In this document: one piece after another, positions 29,272-32,314 of the stretch
Position numbering within the stretch: position 1 is the stretch's first letter
How the letters are laid out: each line of letters begins with the position of its first letter
NCBI GenBank assembly: GCA_036490475.1
Contig: DASXDT010000006.1
Coordinates: 1,612,001-1,676,000, forward strand
Direction of reading: 5' to 3'
DNA: 64,000 bases
DNA from: Candidatus Tumulicola sp.
GTDB taxonomy: Bacteria > Vulcanimicrobiota > Vulcanimicrobiia > Vulcanimicrobiales > Vulcanimicrobiaceae
The notes under the pieces: generated by a model
The model's input: the letters and a program-made list of their open reading frames with translations, nothing else
Told to the model about the DNA's origin: nothing
Databases searched by the model: none
Program-made: the position numbers and the translations under genes

Positions 29272-30696
29272 TTAGCCGACGGCGCCTTCCATTTCCATCT
29301 TGACGAGCCGGTTTAGCTCGACCGCATATTCCATCGGCAATTCCTTGACGAAGAAGTCGAAGAATCCGTTGACGATCATCGCGGTCGCGTCGGCCTCGGA
29401 GAGCCCGCGGCTCATCGCATAAAACAACTGCTCTTCGCCGATTTTACTGACGCTAGCTTCGTGTTCGACGGTCGAACGCTGTTCGTGAATTTTCATCGTC
29501 GGCTTGGTGTCGCTGGACGAATGGTCGTCCATGATCAGGGCGTCGCAGCGCACGCGCGTTTTCGCACCGGTCGCGCCCGGATAGATCTCGACCAATCCGC
29601 GGTAGGTGGTCTTGCCGCCATGCGCGCTCACGCTCTTGTTGGTGACGACCGACGTCGTGTTGGGTGCGGCGTGAATCACTTTCGCGCCCGCGTCTTGATG
29701 CTGCCCGTCGCCGGCAAACGCCATCGACAGAATTTCACCGCGCGCGCCTTCGCCCATCAAGTAGATAGCCGGGTACTTCATCGTCAGCCGCGAGCCGAGG
29801 TTGCCGTCGACCCATTCGACCGTCGCATTCTTGTGCGCGAACGCGCGCTTGGTGACGAGATTGAAGATGTTGCGATACCAATTTTGGATCGTCGTGTAGC
29901 GGATCGACGCATCTTCCATCGCGACCAGTTCTACCACCGCCGAATGCAGCGACGAGGTTGAAAACTTCGGCGCCGTGCAGCCCTCGATGTAGTGCACTTT
30001 GGAACCCTTGTCGGCGATGATCAGGGTCCGTTCGAATTGGCCCATGTTCTCGGCGTTGATCCGGAAGTAGGCCTGCAGCGGCATGGCGACTTCGACGCCC
30101 GGCGGCACGTAGATAAACGACCCGCCCGACCAGACGGCCGAGTTGAGCGCAGAGAACTTGTTGTCGCCCTGCGGAATGATGGTTGCGAGATACTTACGGA
30201 CGATATCCGGATACTTCTTGACCGCCGTGTCCATGTCGCAAAACAGCACGCCCTGCTCGTCGAGCGCCTTGCTCGTGTTGTGATAGACGACTTCGGACTC
30301 GTACTGGGCCGAGACGCCGGATAGAAACTTACGCTCCGCTTCCGGAATGCCTAAGCGATCGAACGTTCGCTTGATGTCGTCCGGGACGTCGTCCCAGGAC
30401 CGTTCGGTTCGGTCGGTCGAGCGCACGAAATAATGGATGTCGGCGAAGTCGATCTCATTCAGCCGGGCGGTGTCGCCCCAGGCCGGCATCGGCTTGCTCA
30501 AAAACAGTTCGTAGGCGCGCAGGCGAAACTCGAGCATCCATTGCGGCTCGTCCTTCATGGCGCTGATGCGCGCGACGATCTCTCGCGTCAGGCCTTTGTC
30601 GGATTTGAAGACGTAGTTTTCCTGATCGTGAAACCCATGGCGGTAGTCTTCGCCGATATTTTCGGGGGAAACCGGGGTCTCGAGTTGTGTCACCAT
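29272..30696 (-). CDS. sufB: Fe-S cluster assembly scaffold SufB
   Basis: A 474-residue SufB with near-standard length. Conserved blocks are the N-terminal [11 protein letters not shown], then [44 protein letters not shown] with the conserved Cys, [26 protein letters not shown] and the C-terminal [17 protein letters not shown]. SufB forms the SufBC2D scaffold on which clusters are built. SufC, SufD and SufS are not adjacent; only the Rieske ferredoxin and the phosphatase follow. Expression starts from a promoter with almost no leader. Confidence 0.97.
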
Positions 30697-30705
30697 ATCG
30701 AAGTA

Positions 30706-30734
30706 AGCGTACCCCCCTGCGGAGACATAGTCAA
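30706..30734 (-). promoter_or_regulatory. sufB promoter, apparently leaderless
   Basis: On the minus strand -35 TTGACT (30734-30729), a 17-bp spacer and -10 TACGCT (30711-30706) are followed by the sufB ATG after 9 nt. A run of G (30712-30717) within the spacer could be mistaken for a Shine-Dalgarno site but would not be transcribed. Confidence 0.65.
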
Positions 30735-30789
30735 GATAATGAAGTAGGAAGTTGAAAATCCCTGCGGGCCGCTTGCTGATTTCCTGTGC

Positions 30790-31024
30790 AGAAGGGGTTT
30801 ACAGGGGGGGGCGCAGGGGATATGATTGGCGCCGGACCCTGGGTGGGGTCCACGGTTCAAAGGGAAGGCGCGCCCTTACGCGCCATAGCGGCGAGTCGCC
30901 CGTGCACCGCTCAAAAGCGCCGGCAAGAGCTCGTCGAAAGGTCGGGGACGTGACCGCATAGCGGACGCCAGCCGACGAGTCCGGAGGTGGGATTCCCCCG
31001 AGGTCAAGGAGACCCTGGTACAAA
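30790..31024 (+). ncRNA. long structured 5' leader of speD, candidate cis-regulatory RNA
   Basis: The only stretch of more than 300 bases without a gene (30697-31024) lies between sufB and speD. Its right part is full of complementary segments: 30834-30839/30846-30851 (GGACCC/GGGTCC), 30867-30872/30879-30884 (GGCGCG/CGCGCC), 30887-30891/30907-30911, and a long-range 7-bp stem 30930-30936/30973-30979 (CTCGTCG/CGACGAG). The last encloses small hairpins at 30940-30955 or 30954-30964. Finally 31002-31005/31011-31014 (GGTC/GACC) holds AAGGA, the likely speD ribosome-binding site, in its loop. No known riboswitch consensus (SAM, cobalamin, glycine, TPP, guanidine) was recognised. The left part (30735-30790) holds nothing clear beyond the sufB promoter. 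Confidence 0.5.
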
Positions 31025-31438
31025 TTGAAGGCACTCGGTAGGCACATTGTGTGCGAGTTTTCGGGTTGCGACCCGCGCGTTCTGTCCGACATCGACGATA
31101 TCGCTGCCATGATGGTTGCGGCGGCAAAGGCCGCTAACGCTACTATTATGGAGAGCGCCTTCCATCGTTTCGAGCCGCAAGGCGTTTCCGGAACGGTGAT
31201 CCTGGCCGAATCACATCTATCGGTCCACACCTGGCCCGAGAAGGGCTATGCCGCGATGGATTTTTATACATGCGGCGATCATACCGACCCTTGGCTTGCT
31301 TGCGAACACGCAGCTCGAGTTCTCAGTGCGCGCAGCGTATTGACGACCGAGTTCAAGCGCGGGATCGAGAAGAGCGACGGAGAGTTCACCCACGTGGTCG
31401 GCCGCGATCACGATTTACGCGTCTTATCGGCGTCGTAA
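31025..31438 (+). CDS. speD: S-adenosylmethionine decarboxylase proenzyme (prokaryotic class)
   Basis: A 137-residue proenzyme that cleaves itself to generate a pyruvoyl group and then decarboxylates AdoMet to supply the aminopropyl donor for spermidine. The self-processing serine is Ser63 in AESHLSVHTWPE; His68 and Cys83 (YTCGDH) complete the known catalytic set with the same numbering as the Thermotoga enzyme. TTG is taken as start because KALGRHI directly follows, as in other members. AAGGAG lies 13 nt upstream. The long leader suggests regulation of the message. speE lies 1 kb downstream, separated by a lipoprotein gene and a terminator. Confidence 0.95.
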   Translation: MKALGRHIVCEFSGCDPRVLSDIDDIAAMMVAAAKAANATIMESAFHRFEPQGVSGTVILAESHLSVHTWPEKGYAAMDFYTCGDHTDPWLACEHAARVLSARSVLTTEFKRGIEKSDGEFTHVVGRDHDLRVLSAS

Positions 31439-31597: not shown

Positions 31598-32314
31598 ATG
31601 CGTATCACTACCATAGCCATTGGCGCTGCGATCGTTGCAGCCGCAGCGATGAGCGCTTGCGCAAGTCGCGGCGTCGTCCCATCGCAAAGTTTCGCTTCGA
31701 GCAACGGAACTACGGCGATGCTTGCCGCAAAAGCGACGCCGACGCCGACCGCTTGCGAAAAGACCAGTCCACCGATGTACTATTTCGCCGGCAACTGCGT
31801 CGCGTTCACGCTCAAGGAGACGGCGACTACGACGGTGTTCCTTGGCAAATACAAGCCGTACGACGGCATCAAGATTACGACCGTGTTTAGCAAGAATAGC
31901 GGCGGCCCAGCAGGCGGCATCAAAGCCGTTATGGGTGATGCGACCGGCAAGGGTGACATCACCGGCAAGGTCGGAGGCAAGGCCTTCAAGCTGTACGGCG
32001 ACGGAAACGATTGCTTCTATAGAGGGAAATTAGGGCCGTGCCGGGGCAAGTCATTCCTCTACGCCGAGCTGATCAACAACAGCGGCTCCACGATTAAGCC
32101 GGTCGACACGCCGAAGTTCACTATCGTCGATACGAACGGGTTTCCCGGAAAGAAGTGCTTCCCCGCCGAGTACCAAAAAGGCGGTTGGGTGCCCGAAGAC
32201 AATCTATTCGCAGCACCAAAAGGAAACACGTTGGAACTTCCGTCAGTGGCAAATGACGGGAGCCTCTACTACCTTCCGCATGCACAATTCATCGTCGCGG
32301 GCGTCTGCGAGTAA
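31598..32314 (+). CDS. secreted lipoprotein of unknown function
   Basis: A 238-residue protein with a lipoprotein signal peptide (lipobox MSAC, Cys21) and a Thr/Pro linker (TPTPTAC). The mature part is strand-rich with GGKAFKLYGDG and KFTIVDTNGFPG segments and contains four further cysteines that could form disulfides. No domain was recognised; it does not resemble the lipoproteins at the start of the window except in style. ATG at 31598 is preferred because a signal peptide starts there; GAGG lies 12 nt upstream. It is closed by a strong intrinsic terminator. Confidence 0.7.
   Translation: MRITTIAIGAAIVAAAAMSACASRGVVPSQSFASSNGTTAMLAAKATPTPTACEKTSPPMYYFAGNCVAFTLKETATTTVFLGKYKPYDGIKITTVFSKNSGGPAGGIKAVMGDATGKGDITGKVGGKAFKLYGDGNDCFYRGKLGPCRGKSFLYAELINNSGSTIKPVDTPKFTIVDTNGFPGKKCFPAEYQKGGWVPEDNLFAAPKGNTLELPSVANDGSLYYLPHAQFIVAGVCE

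Follow-up and report, generated by a model that had tools for sequence, protein, structure and literature searches.

AdoMet is the substrate of SpeD, the adenosylmethionine decarboxylase, and the genes of polyamine metabolism have been connected with RNA elements on several occasions. Feedback by spermidine acting through RNA is known for polyamine genes, and the spermidine riboswitch, a variant of SAM-I, is found in the leaders of such genes, speD included (PMC10853860). Two further conserved RNA elements, the odc1 and potE motifs, lie near bacterial polyamine genes (PMC8632094). A search of the open-licence literature returned no description of the RNA presented here or of structured RNAs from Candidatus Eremiobacterota. 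As set out below, the comparison of related sequences supports well a real, conserved structured leader RNA of speD that is absent from Rfam.

The speD locus and its predicted transcript

The window analysed here is a 64,000-nt stretch of DNA from Candidatus Tumulicola sp. Between the start of sufB (30696, minus strand) and the TTG start codon of speD at 31025 lies a gap of 328 nt, in agreement with an earlier reading of the sequence alone (hereafter the sequence-only reading), which had pointed to a large gene-free stretch 5' of speD. In gene order, speD is followed by a speE-kind polyamine aminopropyltransferase, a call whose scores fall under the curated cut-offs; the protein encoded between speD and this spermidine synthase gene (31598-32311) has no NCBIfam match. 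The relatives recovered via SpeD carry the label Candidatus Eremiobacterota, an uncultured bacterial lineage, and a search for SpeD was positive in 53 of 60 relatives. The coordinates of all features are collected in Table 1.

Table 1. Position and support of the features of the speD leader (window coordinates).
Feature	Position	Strand	Support or remark
Predicted sigma-70-type speD promoter: TTTACA, 17-bp G-rich spacer, TATGAT	30798..30826	+	sole promoter-like site in 30600-31100
P0, 5' hairpin GGACCCU/GGGGUCC	30834..30851	+	mean z -2.2 over 73 leaders, 58 under -1
Pseudoknot stem: GGG 30862-30864 / CCC 30873-30875 (P2 loop)	30862..30875	+	80/81 sequences pair
P2: GGCGCG 30867-30872 / CGCGCC 30879-30884	30867..30884	+	99.6% of cells paired
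P3 30889-30895/30930-30936, bearing P3b 30898-30905/30917-30924 over internal loop AAGAG	30889..30936	+	
P4 arm: 30941-30944/30973-30976, inner helices, apical stem 30954-30957/30961-30964	30941..30976	+	
3' motif GGAGGUGGGAUUCC, sampled-phylum-wide	30983..30997	+	invariant in alignment; perfect anti-SD complement GGAGGUG
GGUC/GACC hairpin presenting Shine-Dalgarno AAGGAG (31006-31011)	31002..31014	+	lineage-restricted
speD, adenosylmethionine decarboxylase, TTG start	31025..31438	+	TIGR03330, E 3.4e-42

Of 81 relatives, 75 have an equivalent promoter site directly 5' of the RNA. Because of the position of the promoter, transcription is expected to start near 30833, and the leader RNA beginning at 30790 in the sequence-only reading has to be shortened to match. 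The predicted start is upstream of all conserved stems, so that the objection raised in the same reading, a transcription start downstream of 30980, does not apply. No terminator-like site was detected on the plus strand of the leader. The 17-bp promoter spacer (30804-30820) consists of the G-rich tract GGGGGGGGCGCAGGGGA, and G-runs recur in the spacers of many promoters of the family. At one locus (L026, on the minus strand 5' of speD) the promoter region forms a long inverted repeat, GGGAGACGGTGTAAAGCAC ... GTGCTTTACACCGTCCCCC, with the -35 box inside it.

Comparative evidence for the leader fold

The single-sequence fold of 30790-31060 has an energy of -106.1 kcal/mol, against an average of -107.9 kcal/mol for its shuffles (z +0.36), and 116 of 200 shuffles equal or exceed the native leader in stability. 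Folding energy alone thus shows nothing, and the evidence for structure is comparative only. The single-sequence fold also contains a long-range stem of 7-9 bp joining ~30794-30802 with ~31018-31026, but since its 5' strand overlaps the -35 box this stem should be absent from the transcript; the long-range 7-bp stem of the sequence-only reading is therefore probably not part of the mRNA. Of the other complementary pairs named there, several individual ones fall outside the conserved fold, whereas its broader point, that stems exist here, is borne out by conserved stems with compensatory changes.

A closely similar leader precedes speD in all 30 same-family loci first retrieved, and RNAalifold predicted 36 pairs in these 30 leaders, 16 of them showing compensatory double changes. 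In the main covariation test, a plain MAFFT alignment (33 sequences) served for scoring a hand-written 33-pair structure: the pair cells form in 96.9% of cases, two-sided changes occur in 16 of the 33 pairs, and the covariation score is 0.283. Controls in which the partners were slid by 1-3 columns gave 22-45% paired cells, 2-5 two-sided pairs and scores of 0.04-0.08, and a shuffled control gave 7.1 pairs with two-sided changes, as against the 16 observed. The stems are thus conserved among relatives, and the lack of such conservation, the other objection foreseen from the sequence alone, falls away. When 81 sequences were aligned to the model the number of pairs with two-sided changes reached 25 of 33, a count that leans towards structure because the alignment was fitted to the model. 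The leader shares with riboswitches its place 5' of a metabolic gene and its conserved RNA structure. A protein-coding cause of the conservation is ruled out, since the core lengths cover all three residues modulo 3 and stops leave no frame open throughout all sequences.

The individual elements differ in how they are maintained. P0 varies in sequence and length among relatives, and both f2 sequences are without it. The H-type pseudoknot occurs with AGG/CCU in three sequences and with GGU/ACC in one, and shifted registers give 0-44. Two-sided changes were counted in the 81-sequence alignment at 4 of 6 pairs of P2, 6 of 7 of P3 and 5 of 7 of P3b; the outer four pairs of P4 are 100% paired, three of them with two-sided changes (apical stem, 4/4). 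P3b is absent from L048; in this divergent sequence and in the likewise divergent L049 the pseudoknot and the helices of P3 and P4 persist, with altered base pairs. The joining regions of the alignment hold invariant unpaired positions. An invariant C.GGAGGUGGGAU lies 3' of P4 and is followed by the YUCC arm, the Shine-Dalgarno sequence and the start codon. A loop-loop pairing of GUGGGAU with an upstream CCAC, picked out by eye, was set aside as it is present in only part of the family.

Nearest the start codon, AAGGA (31006-31010) occupies the loop of GGUC (31002-31005) and GACC (31011-31014), as had been read from the sequence. In fixed register all four pairs of this hairpin are present in 26 of 78 family leaders, and most leaders do not have it. 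Five covarying versions were found (GGUC/GACC, ACUC/GAGU, GUUC/GAGC, GCUC/GAGC and AUCC/GGAU), and the outer pairs form in 81 of 156 cases, compared with a maximum of 79 in 1000 shuffles. Because the sequences are related, this covariation gives modest support to a lineage-restricted element. The mean unpaired probability of the Shine-Dalgarno sequence in the predicted ensemble is 0.55, which suggests weak sequestration.

With Rfam 15 there was no match for the window at gathering scores, for the leader at E<=5, or for the relatives with short leaders, and the earlier statement that the leader fits none of the known consensus patterns holds at this lenient threshold. A search for SAM-I (RF00162) gave no match in the leader at E<=5 and none across the whole genome at E<=1, where the control genomes were positive.

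Distribution of the core RNA and the 3' motif

The covariance-model search among relatives suggested in the sequence-only reading was made with R1, a model of the core, in 149 genomes of the phylum. R1 matches 87 of them. The window's family, with 99 genomes, accounts for 85 of these and a sister family for the other two. Judged by the positions of SpeD, the matches immediately precede speD, save two that lie at contig ends (G038, G123). Family genomes that are unmatched also have no SpeD, or a SpeD fragment only (G031), and are mostly incomplete assemblies. The sole strong match in the window's own genome is at speD; a second, weak one (E 0.2) was taken as chance. More than one match was found only in G019, which has two copies of SpeD, and in G123, where the second match, immediately 5' of speD, covers an incomplete copy of the RNA at the beginning of a contig; both doubles are assembly-related. 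G109 also has a second SpeD copy, which begins at a contig end, its leader falling outside the contig. R1 had no match in 44 genomes from speD loci of many other phyla, a set without a positive control and hence weak evidence. Two loci labelled Bacillota (L060, L071) resemble each other around AAGCGGGGUGRGAAUGRAGCC, in the last 150 nt 5' of speD; this stretch may be a different speD leader element.

The long domain is absent from the other families of the phylum, which retain GGAGGUGRRA...CUCC before speD. The pattern GGAGGUGRRA...YUCC is present in 66 of 71 speD leaders across the sampled phylum; the five exceptions are L168, with the weaker GAGGUGAAAUCUU, L175 and L179, with none, and L009 and L045, with variants. 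In its strict form the pattern has 43 matches in the 149 genomes, 37 of them at speD as judged by SpeD and R1 positions, and one of the six elsewhere (G039) is in apparent coding sequence unrelated to speD. The reversed pattern, as a control, has 5 matches. A looser pattern finds a single site in the window's genome, at speD, and the 3' motif is nearly unique to this gene. The end of the motif lies 22-68 nt before the start codon at a widely variable distance from the promoter, which points to a role in RNA. In three f3 speD loci (L040, L042, L043) the SpeD start is apparently shifted, and a short GAAAGCACCCGG-type insertion follows a UUG.

GGAGGUG is the exact complement of the anti-Shine-Dalgarno CACCUCC in the 16S end of relatives, GGATCACCTCCTTT; the sequence was taken from relatives because the window's own assembly yielded no 3' end of the 16S rRNA. 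The duplex of GGAGGUG with the anti-Shine-Dalgarno is predicted at about -14 kcal/mol, versus a mean of -8.4 kcal/mol for the real ribosome-binding site, and GGAGGUG outscores the real Shine-Dalgarno sequence in 79 of 79 family leaders. There is no consistent start codon after GGAGGUG. Either GGAG (30983-30986) or GGG (30989-30991) can pair with a common C-rich arm (30993-30997), and in most leaders two overlapping hairpins sharing this arm are possible. As GGAG hardly varies, the YUCC arm is supported mainly by its retention. Ribosome standby and decoy Shine-Dalgarno elements are strong anti-Shine-Dalgarno complements located 5' of the true ribosome-binding site and held in a hairpin. The strong complement and the two predicted alternative hairpins would fit a site of either kind.

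Proposed function and comparison with known systems

Because the stems are conserved and the predicted transcription start lies upstream of them, a cis-regulatory structured RNA for speD is well supported. The leader ends at the ribosome-binding site and probably sets the amount of SpeD, with translational control as its most likely role; the sensing of a metabolite or polyamine is plausible, given which gene the leader precedes and how compact and conserved its fold is. The reading we favour, and hold on balance to be probable, is that the structured 5' leader acts in cis on translation initiation, with metabolite feedback suggested by the gene context. In this scheme the leader, from ~30833 to 31024, would regulate initiation on the adenosylmethionine decarboxylase mRNA, the pseudoknot together with the P3/P3b and P4 arms would serve as a receiving domain, and the 3' module would be the output. 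In the output, the C-rich arm would have three possible partners, GGAG, GGG and, by a weak pairing, the true Shine-Dalgarno sequence, and GGAGGUG, as the stronger partner of the anti-Shine-Dalgarno, may keep the 30S subunit off the start codon as a standby or decoy. From gene context, the likeliest signal would be AdoMet, dcAdoMet or spermidine, giving translational feedback.

A narrower version of this explanation is a classical riboswitch, in which the pseudoknot/P3/P4 domain binds AdoMet, dcAdoMet, MTA or spermidine and thereby alters access to the ribosome-binding site. The compact pseudoknotted fold, the invariant unpaired positions of the joining regions and the exclusive link to speD all speak for it, as does the precedent of RNA-based spermidine feedback on polyamine genes (PMC10853860), and it is a serious contender at somewhat less than an even chance. 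Weighing on the other side, many conserved positions sit in helices that are missing from L048 or replaced by other helices in L018 and L019, and only the window's family and a sister family have the proposed receiving domain. Other families keep the 3' motif without the domain, which suggests that sensing may not need it.

A leader that works constitutively, as a 5' stabiliser or a standby site, and raises speD expression without sensing would account for a 5' hairpin of variable sequence and for the strong anti-Shine-Dalgarno complement, but the conservation of the joining regions and the link to one gene exceed what a simple stabiliser needs, and we consider this unlikely, though worth keeping in view. 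Slightly more doubtful is the binding of a protein (SpeD itself, a CsrA-type or a ribosomal protein) that blocks or aids initiation. GGA does occur in hairpin loops, in GUGGGAU and in the AAGGA of the Shine-Dalgarno hairpin, yet not every motif loop has GGA, as GUGAAAU (L050), GUGAGAC (L051) and GUGGGUU (L171) show. It is possible, but rather improbable, that the RNA is a switch in which GGAGGUG, as a decoy Shine-Dalgarno sequence, captures or releases 30S subunits upstream of speD by the choice of hairpin; spermidine synthesis would then be linked with the availability of ribosomes or the level of polyamines, and the pseudoknotted domain would be a lineage-specific sensor.

A DNA operator for a transcription factor at the 3' motif, the remainder being passive leader, could draw on the partial dyad formed by GGAG...CUCC, but the motif is far downstream of the promoter at a variable distance and always within about 70 nt of the start, and the rest of the leader has compensatory changes of the RNA type, which makes an operator very improbable. 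Least credible of all is an upstream ORF or leader peptide sensing the pathway, as in speF or eukaryotic adenosylmethionine decarboxylase mRNAs: a GUG frame beginning in GGAGGUG closes near the speD start within about 10-14 codons in some leaders, but in 53 of 81 leaders it stays open for 20 codons or more, GUG is replaced by GUC in several f3 leaders, and neither another conserved start codon nor the conserved short ORF of uORF-controlled polyamine leaders (odc1, speFL type) was found.

The cis-acting regulatory leader favoured here would matter in two respects. Known polyamine-sensing riboswitches comprise one class in the literature searched (PMC10853860), which describes none from this uncultured phylum; a second RNA, structured but unrelated to that class, exclusive to speD and represented by 81 sequences, would make RNA-level control of spermidine synthesis directly testable. 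It is also unusual in itself that a conserved anti-Shine-Dalgarno complement should surpass the real ribosome-binding site in strength.

Among described systems, the spermidine riboswitch is likewise a structured leader of polyamine genes including speD, for which feedback is the natural reading (PMC10853860). It has the four-stem fold of SAM-I and acts by transcription termination in the cases tested, whereas the present leader has a different fold, no SAM-I match and no terminator-like site on the plus strand. The odc1 element places an upstream ORF before ornithine decarboxylase (PMC8632094); the present leader precedes speD and has no conserved ORF. The AdoMet riboswitches of Rfam (SAM-I to SAM-VI and SAM-SAH) bind the substrate of SpeD, but none matches the leader. 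A pseudoknot is also used by the SAM-II riboswitch. What sets the present motif apart from standby or decoy Shine-Dalgarno elements is its conservation ahead of a single metabolic gene throughout the sampled phylum, together with its combination, in one family, with a pseudoknotted domain.
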